32,943 nucleotides of DNA, from positions 1-32,943 of the forward strand of contig JACZJB010000130.1 of the NCBI GenBank assembly GCA_014860805.1. Direction: 5' to 3'. This DNA is from Anaerolineales bacterium (GTDB lineage Bacteria; Chloroflexota; Anaerolineae; Anaerolineales; Villigracilaceae). The translations under genes were made by a program, and so were the position numbers. The notes under the pieces were generated by a model. It was not told the origin of the DNA, did not search any database, and saw only the letters and a program-made list of their open reading frames with translations. Shown one piece after another: positions 16,906 to 22,999 of the stretch (position 1 is the first letter of the stretch; every line of letters starts with the position of its first letter).

Positions 16906-16947
16906 GCAATAAAAAGGACGGAGCAATTGCTCCGTCCTTTTTATTGC
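16906..16947. terminator. 42-bp perfect palindrome: bidirectional terminator of gltX and the cyclase gene
   Basis: Positions 16906-16926 are the exact reverse complement of 16927-16947, with an AATT centre, a core AAGGACGGAGC, and A/T runs outside it. It starts two bases after the gltX stop. It contains the stop codon and last codon of the convergent cyclase-like gene, so it terminates both transcripts and is partly coding on the minus strand. Confidence 0.92.
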
Positions 16948-17576
16948 TGTTCTTCTTCCGTGTTCGTTTTGTAAATGATCGAATATGCAGATGTGCTTAA
17001 CCCGCCGATACTGACTTCGATGAGTTTTCCTTGGATGGCGCCTTCTGCTGGAATAAGGTCCATTGCTTCTTTAGTGATCAGGATTTCCTCTGCCATGCCG
17101 ATGTCTTCGCCCATTTTACAGGCGCGGTTGACGGCATCGCCGAAGATATCTTCATGGTTGACGATCAGAATTTGCCCATAATCGATCCCGATGGATGCTT
17201 GAATGTCCAATTCATCTGCTGTTAGCAGGTTGGATGAGGCGAGGGCGTGTTGAATGGTAATTGCTGCGCGTACGGCTGCGAGTGGATCGGGCAGGATGGC
17301 AAAGCAGTTATCCGCCTCGAACTTGATGACGCTCCCACCGTGACCTGTGATGATCGGTTCCACGGTCAACTGCATGCGGCGGATCATCGAAAGGTAATGA
17401 ATGATTCCGTATTTGCGGGTAAGCAGGGAAAACCCAAACATATCCAGCACAAGCACGGTATTTTTTGTGCCGTATGCATGCCAGATCGCATCTTCCAGCT
17501 TCTTGCGTTCGATCGGATTTGTTTCCTGTGAATAGTGCAGTAAAAGTTCTTGAAAGTGCGCATTGTTTGGGAGCAT
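16941..17576 (-). CDS. Class III nucleotide cyclase-like protein
   Basis: A 211-residue cytoplasmic protein with one class III cyclase domain (about 38-203) and a short helical N-terminus, but no sensor domain. Expected catalytic positions: Asp45 (VLVLDMFGFS) and Asp89 (KFEADNC) for metals; Lys85 and Asp143 (HEDIFGDAVN) as the ATP-specifying pair; Asn150 for the transition state. The transition-state Arg, four residues after that Asn, is Lys154, and the usual GD of the second metal motif reads AD. It may be a weak adenylate cyclase or a divergent nucleotide binder. AGAGG precedes ATG 17576, and TATAAT (17604-17609) is a probable -10. Confidence 0.75.
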   Translation of the reverse strand: MLPNNAHFQELLLHYSQETNPIERKKLEDAIWHAYGTKNTVLVLDMFGFSLLTRKYGIIHYLSMIRRMQLTVEPIITGHGGSVIKFEADNCFAILPDPLAAVRAAITIQHALASSNLLTADELDIQASIGIDYGQILIVNHEDIFGDAVNRACKMGEDIGMAEEILITKEAMDLIPAEGAIQGKLIEVSIGGLSTSAYSIIYKTNTEEEQQ

Positions 17577-17681: not shown

Positions 17682-19103
17682 TTAAATATCGCCAGGCTCA
17701 TCAGCCATTCTTACAATACGCGGCGTGAACCTGCCCAGCACTTCCACAAGTTCAAGCTGTGCAGCGATGACTTCTTCGATGGGCTTGTACGCCTGCGGAG
17801 ATTCATCAATGCCGCCGCCGAGCAGGGTGACGCCGTTCTTTTTGAGATACTCGTCCCGCGCTGACTTGCTGATCGAGTTCAATGCATTTCTGCGGCTCAT
17901 CAACCGACCTGCACCATGCGAGGCGGACGAAAGAGAGTTATCTACGCCTTTGCCGCGGACAACGTAACCCGCATCACCCATTGATCCTGGGATGACTCCG
18001 AGCACACCTTTGCCGGCTGGGGTGGCTCCCTTGCGGTGGACAACAACCTTGCGCCCGTCTGGAAGCGTTTCATGCCAGGCAAAGTTGTGATGGTTTTCAA
18101 CCACAGCGGCTTCCTTCAGCCCAACGGATGCTGCCACACGCTTGTGGATGATGTAGTGATTGGCAGAGGCAAAACGCCCTGCAAGTTCCATCGAAAGCCA
18201 GTATTCCTGACCTTCTTCTGAATTCAGTGATAGCCATGCGAGGTGCTGAACACTCTTATCGAGATCGGGATGCTTCTCTCTTGCGATTTTGCTGAACCTG
18301 TCCGCGATCTTGGCGCCAACTCCGCGGGAGCCGCTGTGCGAGAGCAGGGCAAGATACTCGCCAGGCTGCAAACCGAACATGGGTTCCTGCAGACTGAACG
18401 AACCCCATTCGACAAAATGATTGCCCGTTCCGCTTGTGCCAAGTTGATTCATGGCTGTGTCCTTCAATGTCTTAAGCTGGCGGGTGGCGTACCACGCATT
18501 GTCATCCAGTACTTCATGTTGAGCCTTTTTATTCCCCGTCCACTTTGCACCCATGCCGAAAGCGGTTTCTTCCCAAAGGGAATCCTCAAACATGCCCTTC
18601 TTTTGCCCAAGCAGATGCGGTGAGATTTCGTAGATCGAGAGTCTCATGCGGCAGGCAATATCCACGCCCACGGCATAGGGGATGACGACGTTTTCAGTGG
18701 CAAGCACGCCTCCAATGGGAAGACCATAGCCAACGTGTGCATCGGGCATCAACGCGCCTGTCACAGTAACAGGCAGGCGCATGGCGTTTTCCATTTGCTT
18801 GATGGCTTCGGGGTCGATCTGGTTTTCACCCCAAATTGGGAATGGGATGGGGTTTTCAAGAAGTGTGTATTCGGAAGGTTCATCCTTTTGTGTGAGCCTA
18901 ATGCACTCACGCGCGAGGTCTGCGAGCAAGTTGTCTGCGAGGAAACTGCCGGGGTTTTGCCGAACAGCTTCGAGTTGATCAAGAGCCGCATCGCGTTCCA
19001 TGCCGCTTTCGATCATCTTGTTGCCTGCATCCTTTGCAAGCCCAATGACTCTTCCGTCTTCCCAGTTATTTAATTTCAGGATCTTTCCTGTAATGATTTC
19101 CAT
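17682..19103 (-). CDS. rtcB: RtcB RNA-splicing ligase
   Basis: A GTP- and Mn-dependent ligase joining 2',3'-cyclic phosphate or 3'-phosphate RNA ends to 5'-OH ends, used in RNA repair. The 473-residue sequence keeps the active-site motifs: MPDAHVGYGLPIGG (119-132), GVDIACRM with Cys151, GTGNHF with His229, SHSGSRG with His256, ENHHN (336-340), HRKGA with His356, and SHGAGR with His396, the residue expected to be guanylylated. AAGGA precedes ATG 19103. There is no archease gene nearby. It is separated from the upstream ABC genes by a repeat-like palindrome and probably has its own promoter. Confidence 0.95.
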   Translation of the reverse strand: MEIITGKILKLNNWEDGRVIGLAKDAGNKMIESGMERDAALDQLEAVRQNPGSFLADNLLADLARECIRLTQKDEPSEYTLLENPIPFPIWGENQIDPEAIKQMENAMRLPVTVTGALMPDAHVGYGLPIGGVLATENVVIPYAVGVDIACRMRLSIYEISPHLLGQKKGMFEDSLWEETAFGMGAKWTGNKKAQHEVLDDNAWYATRQLKTLKDTAMNQLGTSGTGNHFVEWGSFSLQEPMFGLQPGEYLALLSHSGSRGVGAKIADRFSKIAREKHPDLDKSVQHLAWLSLNSEEGQEYWLSMELAGRFASANHYIIHKRVAASVGLKEAAVVENHHNFAWHETLPDGRKVVVHRKGATPAGKGVLGVIPGSMGDAGYVVRGKGVDNSLSSASHGAGRLMSRRNALNSISKSARDEYLKKNGVTLLGGGIDESPQAYKPIEEVIAAQLELVEVLGRFTPRIVRMADEPGDI

Positions 19104-19156: not shown

Positions 19157-20962
19157 CTATGTTTCTTCCAACTTCCATAATTCGCGCATCTCCTGGCTGG
19201 TTGTGAGGAGTTTGTCGAGCGTGCCTTCGGATTCGATGCGGCCATCTTTCAAGACGATAATATGATCGGCTCGTCGCAGCAGCGGACGGCGGTGGGAGAC
19301 GACAAGACAGGTCAAGTTTCCATTCTCGAAAATCTGCTCCCAAAGTTGGCTTTCGGTTTCGACGTCCAGTGCGCTGGAAAGGTCGTCGAAGACAATGAGT
19401 TCAGGTTCGCGGATGAACATGCGCGCAGCGGCGGTGCGCTGCGCCTGCCCACCCGAAAGTTTGACTCCGCGCGCGCCGACCATCGTTTCGAGATTGTCGT
19501 CCAGTTGTTCGAGGTCGCGATCCATGACTGCGAGTTTTGCGGCACGGTAGATTTCGTCATCGCTGCGATCCAAGCCGAGCAGGATATTGTTTCGCAAGGT
19601 GTTGCTGAACAAGCGCGGGACTTGTGCGGTGTAGGCGCAGCGCGGCGGAATGAGAAAGTCTCCCGGTGAGGTGAGTATGGTCTCGTTCCATCGTATTTCG
19701 CCAGACTCGATGGGGAGTAATCCCAGCAGCGCACGTAGAAGGGTTGTTTTGCCGGAACCGATGCGACCTGTGATAACTGTCAATGAGCCGCGCTTGACTT
19801 TCAGAGAAATGTCTTCGATGCCGTTTTTTGAATCAGGGTAGTGAAATGTCAGGTTTTTTGCAACCAGTTCATTTAGTTGGTCTGCGGCGGTTTTTGCCGG
19901 GTAAGTCACTTCGGGCAGCGGACCTTCCAGATCCACTTTGCTGTGTTCAACGAGCGCGCCCAGCGGTGCATTTTCCATGAGGTGGTACATTCGCTGAACG
20001 GAAACATCCAGTTGTTTGTAACGCGCCGCGAGCATTCCGCCAAAGGTGGTGAGATCGCCCATGCTTTGTAATAGATAAACGAAGAGCGAAAAATCACCAA
20101 GGGTGAAGTTGCCTGTGCGCATGGATTGGCCGACGAGCACAAGAATGACACCCGTGCCAAGAGTGGATGTGTTGCGGTAGATCGAGCCAAGCACTTCGTC
20201 GAAGAGTTTTTCGCGGATGGTTAAAATGCGGCGTTCGTCATTGAGCTTGTGAAAGTAGCTGATGACGTTCTTTTCAGCCGTTGCCACTTTGACTGCCTGC
20301 ACTGCGCCAAAAAATTCGCCGATGAAGCCGGTTACTTTTCCGCCAGCCTGCCGCGATGTGCGGCGATAATGTTCGATGCGGCTTGTAGCCAGGTTGGCGA
20401 CGATGCCGACGACCACAAGAGGGATTAATGCCATCACTGTAATGGATGGATCGATCTGTGTCATGAGCGCAATGGAAACGGCAATGATAGCCAGCCCGAC
20501 CATGATATCGTTGATGAGAATTACAAACAACGGGATCTCGTTCACATCCGTTTTGAAGCGGCTGACGGCTTCTCCGGGCGAATCAGGCAGTTGCGACGCG
20601 CCGGGGCGTTTCAAAATATACTTCAGAAGATTCTTGCGCAGGAGAGTGGACATTTCCGCAAAGATGGGCACGTCGGCATAATAAAAGCCATAGCTTGCAA
20701 TAACACGTCCGATCCATAACGCGGTGAAAAGAGCGATCACTGCCCATATCCCAAAGGTGAGTTGAGCCGCGCCTGTGACAAAATCAAAAAAGGCTTTGAT
20801 AATGAGCGCTGGACCGATTTGCCAGCAGAAGCGAATCAGTGCCACGCTGACCAGATCCACGAACCAGAGCCACGGGCGGAAGGCAAGCATTTCCCAGATG
20901 ACTTTCCATGTGGGCAGTGCAGGCACTTTTTTGTTTTTGATTGCGGGGTTGAAAGTACTCAT
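19157..20962 (-). CDS. ABC exporter half-transporter, degenerate-site subunit
   Basis: A 601-residue half-transporter: membrane domain of about six helices (residues 25-320) followed by a nucleotide-binding domain (about 365-601). Motifs are Walker A GRIGSGKT (399-406), signature LSGGQ (502-506, canonical), Walker B LIVFDD (522-527) in which Asp527 replaces the catalytic Glu, and H-loop His557. The Asp marks the degenerate half of a heterodimeric exporter. It is translated after the 587-residue partner with a four-base ATGA overlap. The pair probably exports a hydrophobic compound or drug, like BmrCD or TM287/288. It is co-regulated by the attenuator upstream of the partner. Confidence 0.93.
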
Positions 20963-22722
20963 GCGAGCACCTCCTCCATTCCAGTTTGTAAAAGTTGATA
21001 AAAACGTGAGTCCGGGGTTGCCGCCAGTTGTTCGCGGCTGCCGTATTCGCTCACCTGGCCTTTGTCCAGAATCATGATGTCATCCGCGCGATGGACCGTG
21101 TCCAGCCGATGTGCGATGATGATGGCAGTACGTCCTTTGAGCAATTTATCTATTGCGCGTTCGAGCTTTTGCTCTGTGGCAGGGTCAAGACGGGATGAAG
21201 CTTCATCAAGAATTACCAGACCGGGATTTCGCAAAAAGACTCGTGTGAAGGCTAATAGCTGCGCCTCACCTGCGGACAGAGATCTTGATCCTGTGTCGAG
21301 TTCAGTATCCAAGCCTTTGGGTAGATTTCGATACCAGTCGCCGAGTTCCAGTTCTTCGAGGGTGGCAATGATCTTCTCGTCTGCTATCGTGCGGTCGAAG
21401 AAGGTTAGGTTGTCGCGGATGCTGGCGCGGAAGAGCTGCACATCCTGCGTGACGATGGCGATGTTGCGGCGCAGGGATTTGAGCTGCGTATCGCGCAAGT
21501 CCATGTTATTGATTTTTATGCTGCCAGAATTCACATCGTAGAGGCGGAATATCAATCGGCCGATGGTGGTTTTGCCACTGCCTGTGCGTCCGAGCAGCCC
21601 AAGGATGGAACCAGGTTTCAGGTTAAGCGAGAGCGCTTTAAGTACGTTATCTTCACTATTGCCTTTTTCGGGGTTGGAATAGGAGAAGGTCACATTTTCA
21701 AACGTTAATCCCAGCGGCGTGGATTCGAGTTCCGGGCCAACACCATCTGTTACTTCTGGTTTGAAATTCCGAAACTCGGTCAAACGCTGCACGCAGGCGC
21801 CAATGGTTTGGAAACTTTCGATTTCGTGTGTCATTGCCCAGAACGGTTCTTCGAGAAGGTTGATGTAGTGGACGAAGAGATAAACAGTGCCAATGGTAAT
21901 AATGTCCAGTGAGAACAACCAGTACCCGCTGACGATGGCGAGTAGATTGCCAACGGTCAATGCCAGGCCCATGGAATTTTCGATGATCCAGCGCTTGAAA
22001 TGTGCTCTGCGGTTGTGTCCGAGGATGATGCTCTGGTGGCGGAATAATTCCTGAATGGAAAAGTCCACTGCACCGCTGGAGCGGATGTCTTCTGTGCCTG
22101 TTAACTGCTCTTCGATAAAGCCGTATAGCTGGGCTTCTGCTTCACGCCTGGCTTTTTGATGCGGCACGGCAATGTCTTTCAATTTTCCAAGGATCAAAAT
22201 CGTGAGAATGGAATAAATCGAAAACGCCAGCCCGGCACGCCAATCTTCGAGGAACAATGCAACCAAAATGCCGACGAGTAGAAGTCCGTTTGCGATGAGA
22301 TTCAACGCGAATTGAGAGAAGAAGGTCGCAAGTTCGGTCACGTCACCATCGATGCGTTCGATCAATTCACCGGGCGTGTGGTCGTTGTGAAAACGCATGT
22401 CGAGGTTAAGCGCGTGCCAGGCAAGCTCGGCACGCAGGTCGTTGGTTGCCGTCCACGCCACATTTTCACCAAGATAGGTAACGCTGACCGCCACGGCTTG
22501 CTGGATCAACGCAATGCCAATGAATGCGACTGCCGTCCAGGTGAGAGTTTGCAATGCTTCCCCTGCCAGCGCAGAGTCGATGAATTTCCGCATGATCTGC
22601 GGCGCGAAGATGCGCAGACCAATGCTGCCAAACAGCATGGCGGCCAGCAGGATGAACCGTCTCTTTTGCGGGCGGATGTGCTCGGAGAGTAAATTCCAAT
22701 AGGATTTGAATGATAAGTTCAT
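20959..22722 (-). CDS. ABC exporter half-transporter, catalytic-site subunit
   Basis: A 587-residue half-transporter with an exporter membrane domain (about 20-310) and nucleotide-binding domain (about 340-587). Walker A is GRTGSGKT (378-385), Walker B LVILDE with intact Glu507, H-loop His538, but the signature is LSAGE (482-486) instead of LSGGQ. The deviant signature complements the degenerate Walker B of the partner, so both changes fall in the same composite site and the other site stays canonical. The start is ATG 22722 with only weak GAG upstream. Its leader (22808-22999) carries a short ORF and terminator/antiterminator structures. Confidence 0.93.
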
Positions 22723-22786: not shown

Positions 22787-22807
22787 CATGGGGACAGGAT
22801 AATAAAA

Positions 22808-22837
22808 AAGCCACGGTGCTAAAGTGCACCGTGGCTT
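22808..22837 (-). terminator. Leader terminator (segments 3:4) of the ABC exporter operon
   Basis: AAGCCACGGTGC (minus strand 22837-22826) pairs perfectly with GCACCGTGGCTT (22819-22808), six-base loop, and is followed by TTTTATT on the minus strand. The stem lies after the leader ORF stop and 85 bases before the exporter start, so it would end transcription before the structural genes. Confidence 0.88.
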
Positions 22838-22882
22838 AAAAGACACAGAAGGCAGACCTTTAACGGTCTACAGGCGCACTTC
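22821..22882 (-). promoter_or_regulatory. Antiterminator pairing (segments 2:3) in the ABC operon leader
   Basis: Segment 2, GAAGTGCGCC (minus strand 22882-22873), can pair with segment 3, GGTGCACTTT (22830-22821), as ten contiguous pairs, two of them G-U. Segment 3 takes up part of the terminator's 5' arm and all but one base of its loop, so this pairing prevents termination. Segment 2 can instead pair perfectly over nine bases with segment 1, GCGCACTTC (22939-22931), beside the leader ribosome-binding site. Confidence 0.65.
22852..22871 (-). other. Small hairpin with the leader ORF stop codon in its loop
   Basis: GTAGACC (22871-22865) and GGTCTGC (22858-22852) form seven pairs, one G-U, around GTTAAA, which holds the TAA stop of the leader ORF. 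A terminating ribosome would open it; it could act as a pause hairpin. Confidence 0.5.
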
Positions 22883-22928
22883 GAGATGGATTCAATTTTC
22901 GCAGGTGTAGGTCTATACGATGGGTCAT
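22860..22928 (-). CDS. 22-residue leader peptide of the ABC exporter operon
   Basis: A short ORF that is not in conventional gene lists. It starts at ATG 22928 with AAAGGAG (22945-22939) ten bases upstream and ends at TAA 22860-22862. The peptide begins MTHRIDLHLRKLN and ends APVDR; four of 22 residues are Arg (positions 4, 10, 16, 22; two by CGA) and there is one Lys. It lies between a promoter and the leader terminator, and RNA segment 2 is within codons 16-19. A ribosome stalled near codons 8-11 would block segment 1 while leaving segment 2 free. The peptide itself need not function after synthesis. I recognise no exact homologue. Confidence 0.7.
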   Translation of the reverse strand: MTHRIDLHLRKLNPSRSAPVDR

Positions 22929-22969
22929 TTGAAGTGCGCTCCTTTCTTTTGAAATTTAATTACTCTTGC

Positions 22970-22999
22970 AGTTTACATGAGAGTAGGATGAGTTGTCAA
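22970..22999 (-). promoter_or_regulatory. Predicted promoter of the ABC exporter leader
   Basis: A perfect -35 TTGACA (22999-22994), 18 bases, then TAAACT (22975-22970), a four-of-six -10. Transcription would begin near 22963, 35 bases before the leader ORF start. The -35 lies in an inverted repeat (22993-23011). Confidence 0.55.

Follow-up and report, generated by a model that had tools for sequence, protein, structure and literature searches.

A leader RNA that probably acts as a ribosome-mediated attenuator sensing arrest at the first codons recurs before ABC exporter and other genes in Anaerolineales

Introduction

Several leaders are known in which a ribosome on a short upstream ORF decides whether a downstream gene is expressed. 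The leader of Bacillus subtilis vmlR contains an anti-antiterminator, an antiterminator, and a terminator; its uORF has three codons and lies within the first stem-loop. Initiating ribosomes are said to be arrested on this uORF by lincomycin and retapamulin, and with a ribosome at the start codon, the anti-antiterminator is disrupted and the antiterminator becomes available (PMC9226507). In the bmrB-bmrCD operon of the same species, a 53-codon leader ORF that itself contains the terminator precedes the genes of a heterodimeric ABC exporter (PMC4191407). In E. coli, the toiL uORF before topAI senses several antibiotic classes, and ribosomes are trapped at its start codon in the presence of tetracycline or retapamulin; the response proceeds through unmasking of the topAI ribosome site and Rho (PMC12121999). 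In Listeria, transcription attenuation by a small ORF (rli80), encoding a 14-residue peptide with an RLR macrolide motif, operates before hflXr, a gene for a ribosome-splitting-factor homologue (PMC6310831).

Here, we describe a leader located on the minus strand of a 32,943-nucleotide contig of an Anaerolineales bacterium (JACZJB010000130.1; the whole contig is referred to as the window). The predicted logic of this leader resembles that of vmlR, though we do not class it as a homologue. Anti-antiterminator, antiterminator, and terminator are present in both, and a ribosome at the start codon is predicted to break the first and free the second here as well, judging by footprint folding, in 147 of 147 related leaders. 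The differences are that leader ORFs of the present family are 16-34 codons long, that the 5′ partner of the first helix (segment 1) lies in the gap before the start codon, that its 3′ partner (segment 2) lies near the stop codon, and that copies precede many kinds of genes. With bmrB-bmrCD the leader shares an ORF, a terminator, and a heterodimeric ABC exporter of the same wide family, but its terminator lies past the stop codon of a 22-codon ORF. Unlike toiL, it ends in an intrinsic terminator, and unlike rli80, its family has an RLR motif in only one of 147 members. Attenuators of this kind are thus already known from vmlR, bmrB, and hflXr (PMC9226507, PMC4191407, PMC6310831), while the sequence and the scope of the family look undescribed. 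A search of the open literature on attenuation in Anaerolineae, Chloroflexi, or Chloroflexota, covering titles and the beginnings of abstracts, with subscription papers and preprints mostly outside it, returned no account of the leader. What would be new is a start-arrest attenuator with segment 1 placed between the ribosome site and the start codon, used before many kinds of genes in one order.

Results

Organization of the leader

The leader spans positions 22999-22804 of the minus strand, and 81 nt separate the end of its terminator from the first exporter gene. The following elements were recognized:

22970-22999, minus strand: sigma-70-type promoter, from sequence (TTGACA at 22999-22994, 18-nt spacer, TAAACT at 22975-22970, TG before the −10 element)
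22939-22945, minus strand: Shine-Dalgarno site AAAGGAG of the leader ORF, from sequence
22931-22939, minus strand: segment 1, GCGCACTTC, between the ribosome site and the start codon; pairs with segment 2 (covariation)
22860-22928, minus strand: leader ORF of 22 codons, MTHRIDLHLRKLNPSRSAPVDR followed by a stop codon, from sequence
22917-22928, minus strand: predicted stall window, P-site codons 1-4 (A-site codons 2-5), from footprint folding and in-frame residue bias
22873-22882, minus strand: segment 2, GAAGTGCGCC, in codons 16-19; partner of segment 1 (OFF) or of segment 3 (ON), from folding and covariation
22852-22871, minus strand: stop-codon hairpin GTAGACC/GGTCTGC, enclosed by the antiterminator (folding and covariation)
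22842-22848, minus strand: conserved CTGTGTC box, whose CTGTG can pair with CACGG of the terminator 5′ arm (alignment and folding; putative role)
22821-22830, minus strand: segment 3, GGTGCACTTT, equal to the terminator 5′ arm and loop (folding and covariation)
22804-22837, minus strand: intrinsic terminator (segments 3 and 4), a hairpin at 22837-22808 followed by a T-run; 12 bp and −23.5 kcal/mol by folding

When reread from the sequence, the coordinates that a first-pass annotation had given for the promoter, the ribosome site, the 22-codon ORF, segments 1 to 3, and the terminator proved exact. The terminator (22837-22804) lies beyond the end of the ORF (22860), and the ORF and its ribosome site lie 5′ of this intrinsic terminator.

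The stop-codon hairpin and the CTGTGTC box are features that the first-pass annotation did not contain. The box is well kept in exporter-type leaders and, besides pairing with the terminator arm, may correspond to an RNA polymerase pause signal.

Alternative helices are maintained by compensating changes

The OFF structure of the window leader, in which segment 1 is paired with segment 2 and the terminator is formed, had a folding energy of −52.6 kcal/mol (z = −5.8), and none of 200 shuffled sequences was equally stable. The RNA from 22898 to 22819, when folded separately, adopted the antiterminator helix between segments 2 and 3 (−27.5 kcal/mol, z = −4.3).

Covariation was analyzed in an alignment of 92 leaders from which repeated places had mostly been dropped by hand (L048 repeats L025, leaving 91 distinct rows). 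For the OFF structure, to which this alignment was fitted, 92.2% of cells were paired and double changes were found in 21 of 24 pairs, with none of 500 shuffles, which ignore relatedness, scoring as high. Doubly changed cells numbered 229 in this OFF-fitted alignment, versus 58.7 in the same relatedness-blind shuffles. The terminator helices (helices 3 and 4 of the OFF structure) were included in the test. The 2:3 helix is outside the model to which the alignment was fitted; 90.1% of its cells were paired, and 34 were doubly changed versus 13.6 in shuffles (none of 500 as high). The number of 2:3 pairs with double changes, four, was unremarkable, being matched in 109 of 500 shuffles. Pairing scores of segment 2 were higher with its own segment 1 than with segment 1 of other leaders (22.0 versus 19.9), and likewise for segment 3 (20.0 versus 18.4); none of 5000 permutations, which also ignore relatedness, reached either value. 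Sliding the partners by 1-3 columns, a control that does preserve relatedness, also gave values far below the observed ones for both the OFF and the 2:3 helices. In two leaders (L031 and L102), all three segments were altered together. The stop-codon hairpin was paired in 78% of cells, with double changes in five of five pairs.

Thus, the three alternative pairings proposed in the first-pass annotation (1:2, 2:3, and 3:4) are upheld by folding, and in related genomes both helices that compete for segment 2 covary. Mutually exclusive helices maintained by compensating changes, together with a leader ORF and a terminator, lead us to accept its assignment of the locus to the attenuators. Judged from sequence, the window leader is not a chance arrangement.

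The leader ORF is conserved in position rather than in length or peptide

A larger set of 172 aligned leaders comprised 148 distinct leaders and 24 repeats of an identical leader. An ATG-initiated ORF was present in 91 of the 92 leaders of the covariation alignment and in 147 of the 148 distinct ones; the exception, L036, lies before an HsdM gene. Among the 147, the length of the ORF (16-34 codons) and the distance from the start codon to segment 2 (28 to 82 nt) are variable, so that constancy of ORF length, one mark by which the first-pass annotation proposed to judge the leader, is not observed. The context of the start and the position of the stop relative to segment 2 are kept: in 140 of 147 leaders segment 1 ends before the ATG, and in the other seven the two overlap by 1-2 nt, the core of the ribosome site lies 5-14 nt before the start, and the stop codon falls at most 25 nt past segment 2 in 144 of 147. 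A TTGAC-N16..19-TANNNT promoter pattern was found upstream of 139 of 145 related leaders, versus 18 of 2900 shuffled sequences.

The peptide encoded 5′ of segment 2 varies widely. Segment 2 itself is read in a frame giving RSAP in 131 of 147 leaders and in the other two frames in the remaining 16, which read EVRLLTV, SECAC, VVRLLTTG, and others, with the stop codon still nearby. RNA and geometry thus appear to be conserved more than the peptide, and RSAP would mostly reflect an RNA constraint, because those 16 leaders read the same RNA in another frame.

Several members of the set deserve separate mention. In two leaders before ABC-F genes (L243 and L246), the ORFs look leaderless, with a TATAAT box close 5′ of the ATG, and segment 1 would reach into the start codon. 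An identical 220-nt stretch including the leader occurs at two places of one contig (L155 and L193); in the latter, the start of an exporter gene is followed by no long open frame, which may be a remnant or an assembly error.

Ribosomes at the first codons are predicted to favor the antiterminator

To follow the fold during translation, the RNA up to segment 4 was folded at equilibrium with the nucleotides under a ribosome (−14 to +15 relative to the P-site) kept unpaired. Without a ribosome, the window leader formed 9.3 pairs of helix 1:2. With a ribosome at codons 1-4, 9.7-9.8 pairs of 2:3 were obtained; at codons 5-11 the fold was mainly 1:2 (6.8-9.2 pairs), at codon 12 mainly 2:3 (6.3 pairs), and at codons 13-22 neither helix was formed. 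Masking of the segments, which the first-pass annotation had proposed and which we carried out as ribosome footprints, therefore does produce the antiterminator, at about codons 1-4.

The same analysis was extended to the 147 leaders. At codon 1, 2:3 exceeded 1:2 in all of them, whichever of three footprint sizes was assumed. Where the stall window ended depended on that choice: the smallest footprint gave ON at codon 3 in 114 of 147 leaders, and the largest gave ON at codon 5 in 126 of 147. When no ribosome was placed, 2:3 prevailed over 1:2 at equilibrium in 60 of 147 leaders, and an OFF default in these would therefore require a kinetic head start of 1:2, which is made first. In only 74 of 147 leaders did a ribosome at the stop codon cover half or more of segment 2, and in most leaders neither helix then formed.

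Based on these results, the switch would work as follows. When no ribosome is present, segment 1 would pair with segment 2 and the terminator would form; during normal translation, the ribosome would pass over segment 2, again leaving the terminator to form. A ribosome held at about codons 1-4 would cover segment 1 and leave segment 2 free, so that 2:3 could form and the exporter operon would be read. We infer the stall, what causes it, and that the two states occur in the cell. Since codons 1-4 give 2:3 and codons 8-11 mostly do not, the switch would report a ribosome at the start codon or the next few. We are fairly confident that the leader is a ribosome-mediated transcription attenuator sensing such ribosomes; the same family appears to head a regulon in Anaerolineales.

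The first codons of the leader ORF are biased in frame

The codon usage of 104 clustered leaders was compared with that at 197 clustered gene starts preceded by a ribosome site (ORFs of at least 150 codons from the leader loci and the window). At codons 2-5, four classes of codons were depleted in frame: glycine (GGN; 1/416 versus 26/788 in gene starts, p = 3e-4), alanine (GCN; 6/416 versus 48/788, p = 1e-4), aspartate/glutamate (GAN; 13/416 versus 77/788, p = 1.5e-5), and proline (CCN; 5/416 versus 37/788, p = 1e-3). Isoleucine and phenylalanine were enriched. Depletion of the same words was absent at p < 0.05 in the other two frames (p = 0.052 for GCN in one of them), and the joint effect faded from codon 7. 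Further on, some G-rich words were rarer in all frames, and the later bias is therefore partly one of nucleotide composition. When a ribosome is at codons 1-4, the window picked by folding, its A site holds codons 2-5; the in-frame bias thus offers what we regard as independent support, at the level of sequence, for an early stall.

The most likely trigger is a drug or a stress by which ribosomes become frozen at initiation or directly after it. Lincomycin, retapamulin, and tetracycline are described as arresting ribosomes on start codons (PMC9226507, PMC12121999). For chloramphenicol, it is reported that glycine in the A site or at position 0 lifts inhibition (PMC11832420), that alanine at position −1 favors arrest (PMC11832420, PMC8987054), and that aspartate at position 0 does so as well (PMC11832420). 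Measured against these statements, the lack of glycine at codons 2-5 fits chloramphenicol or linezolid, but the depletion of alanine and aspartate does not.

A stall farther along the leader was the mechanism put forward in the first-pass annotation, in which a ribosome near codons 8-11 would expose segment 2 and so allow transcription into the operon. Such a stall might result from a slow codon or from drug-dependent arrest by the nascent peptide. Because segment 1 lies between the ribosome site and the start codon, a single ribosome at codons 8-11 exposes both segments, and the OFF helix wins: in the window leader, 6.8-9.2 pairs of 1:2 formed at these codons versus 0.35-2.9 pairs of 2:3, and 2:3 exceeded 1:2 in only 52-59 of 147 leaders, with the same outcome at codons 8 and 10 for smaller and larger footprints. 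A stall at codon 11 does work in the window leader when a second ribosome is queued on the start codon, giving 9.8 pairs of 2:3, and only then; with such a queue 2:3 is above 1:2 in 146 of 147 leaders. The start-to-segment 2 distance of 28 to 82 nt leaves codons 8-11 without a fixed place relative to segment 2, the peptide 5′ of segment 2 is widely variable, and macrolide-type motifs are not characteristic of the family: apart from the single RLR leader, +X+ occurs in 20 of 147 (shuffled mean, 23). A mid-leader trigger is therefore, in our estimation, unlikely. Activity of the C-terminal peptide RSAP(V/I)(D/N)R as an arrest peptide, which would account for the prevalence of the RSAP frame (131 of 147), is less probable still, given that 16 of 147 leaders keep the RNA and read another frame, and that a stall there would mask segment 2 and, by footprint folding, leave the operon off. 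RSAP as a peptide signal was rejected on the evidence of the alternative-frame leaders.

The first-pass annotation had also raised the possibility of amino-acid shortage acting through arginine codons, of which there are four among the 22 (4, 10, 16, and 22); such a leader would resemble those of trp or his. Compared with gene starts in unclustered sequences, arginine is indeed 1.37-fold at codons 2-5 and 2.43-fold at codons 10-13 (52 versus 20.8 expected), but 0.68-fold at codons 6-9, and compared with the composition of the downstream proteins it is 0.86-fold at codons 2-5 and 0.75-fold further on before segment 2. Codons 16 and 22 sit in segment 2 and the stop-codon hairpin, where the RNA is constrained; there is no conserved run of any residue 5′ of segment 2 (any run of three is found in 7 of 147 leaders), and the assigned downstream genes are not amino-acid biosynthesis genes. 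We consider this explanation highly improbable and retain arrest at the first codons as the preferred one.

The leader family probably belongs to the order Anaerolineales

Two further copies of the leader lie in the genome of the window, one upstream of another ABC exporter pair and one upstream of a GNAT gene. Of 150 genomes of the family, 103 (representing 20 of 26 genera) gave DNA matches at E ≤ 0.01, some of these being short and partial and a few covering nothing but the terminator or the ribosome-site part. With a covariance model built from 27 leaders, 113 of the 251 order genomes searched, from 61 of 104 genera, were found to have copies. With a second model (92 leaders), 37 of 400 genomes sampled across the phylum had copies: 33 from the same order, one from the same class, and three from further off. 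Counting from the misses listed, and if these are sorted by kinship, about 33 of 36 order genomes in this sample carry the leader. A pattern scan of 84,980 species yielded 104 stretches; the 80 listed all match the model, and among the matches listed all 80 bear Chloroflexi, Anaerolineae, or Anaerolineales names, or those of genera or families of that group. Rfam 15 gave no match above the gathering score and two far below threshold. The order carrying the family is thus probably Anaerolineales.

Regions before 40 exporter orthologues outside the order were scanned automatically. With a terminator required, 0 of 40 were positive (0 of 400 shuffles; recall, 55 of 92 known leaders), and a relaxed scan returned 1 of 40 (1 of 400 shuffles; recall, 53 of 92). 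By eye, similar architecture with other letters, in some cases with a mismatch, was seen in L286 and L292 (one family), L273 and L298 (another class), and L236 (same class), and may be present in other parts of Chloroflexota. In L239, two segments are complementary over 12 bases, and no recognized gene lies close 3′. As an outside copy, L237 was dismissed since it looks like a chance match; L245, among the low-scoring model matches, was a false match, and alignment A3 was excluded because unrelated proteins were mixed in.

Other leaders were noticed before exporter orthologues. Those of L276 and L277, elsewhere in the phylum, are of another kind, with 39-codon ORFs that share a PGGL motif, a histidine-rich stretch, and a terminator, and possibly represent another attenuator family. 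L293 and L295 have related short ORFs (MAFFAFATTSNRGAFLAS and MAVFTFMTTSDRGAFAAS) with similar peptides and no clear segment 1-2 pair.

Genes downstream of the leader

Behind the leader in the window, three genes were assigned:

20959-22722, minus strand: ABC exporter half 1 (Pfam; PDB BmrD/YheH chain 7m33_D, E = 1e-58)
19157-20962, minus strand: ABC exporter half 2, its start overlapping the end of half 1 (Pfam; PDB BmrC/YheI chain 7m33_C, E = 1e-45)
17682-19103, minus strand: RtcB RNA ligase (Pfam), probably the third gene of the operon

The best PDB matches of both exporter halves are ABCB-type exporters. Pfam and the BmrD and BmrC chains confirm the heterodimeric pair that the first-pass annotation had placed here, and with a BmrCD-like exporter downstream the parallel it drew with bmrB-bmrCD holds.

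Downstream families were assigned by domain matches or, for the remaining genes, by blastp against the proteins so assigned. The first gene behind 172 copies, a sample made up of the best DNA and model matches, 40 hand-picked regions of the order (39 used), and 80 regions found by pattern, and hence not random, encoded an ABC exporter in 136 cases, a GNAT protein in 11, an ABC-2 ATPase in 7, RsgA in 3, an MFS transporter in 2, and RtcB, RIO, and HsdM (L036) in one each. Five were unassigned, including L193, whose gene begins with an exporter start, and in five no gene was seen. Besides the window, five other loci have RtcB behind the same ABC pair, four of them with an intervening unassigned predicted ORF; RtcB is the first gene behind the leader in L026 and the second in L019. 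Low-scoring copies were found before ABC-F genes in L243, L246, and L247 (NCBIfam NF000355, above cut-off), and others before RsgA, RIO, GNAT with MFS, and ABC-2 ATPase genes.

The copies likely constitute a cis-RNA translation-stress regulon of exporters, ribosome-protection, and RNA-repair genes, whose members would act together. A wider reading, which could equally well be right or wrong, is that Anaerolineales mount a general translation-stress response through a copied cis-acting RNA sensor of start-codon arrest that jointly activates exporters, ABC-F, RsgA, RtcB, GNAT, and MFS genes; as part of this reading, the first codons may have been shaped so that many arresting drugs hold the ribosome there. 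A comparable role is played in Actinobacteria by the protein regulator WhiB7. If this is correct, a repeated RNA switch, rather than a regulator protein, would hold together a regulon of a whole bacterial order, and its copies would point to genes used against ribosome-targeting compounds in bacteria known here mostly from metagenome assemblies. The leader could serve laboratory hosts as a broad sensor of start-arrested ribosomes, and the 147 distinct leaders are a natural data set on which first codons ease ribosome arrest.

With PADLOC, the two exporter halves gave only weak partial matches, and two further proteins submitted gave none. The gene behind RtcB, at 16941-17576, encodes a small protein with a weak match to an adenylate/guanylate cyclase domain (Pfam) and is perhaps the last gene of the operon.
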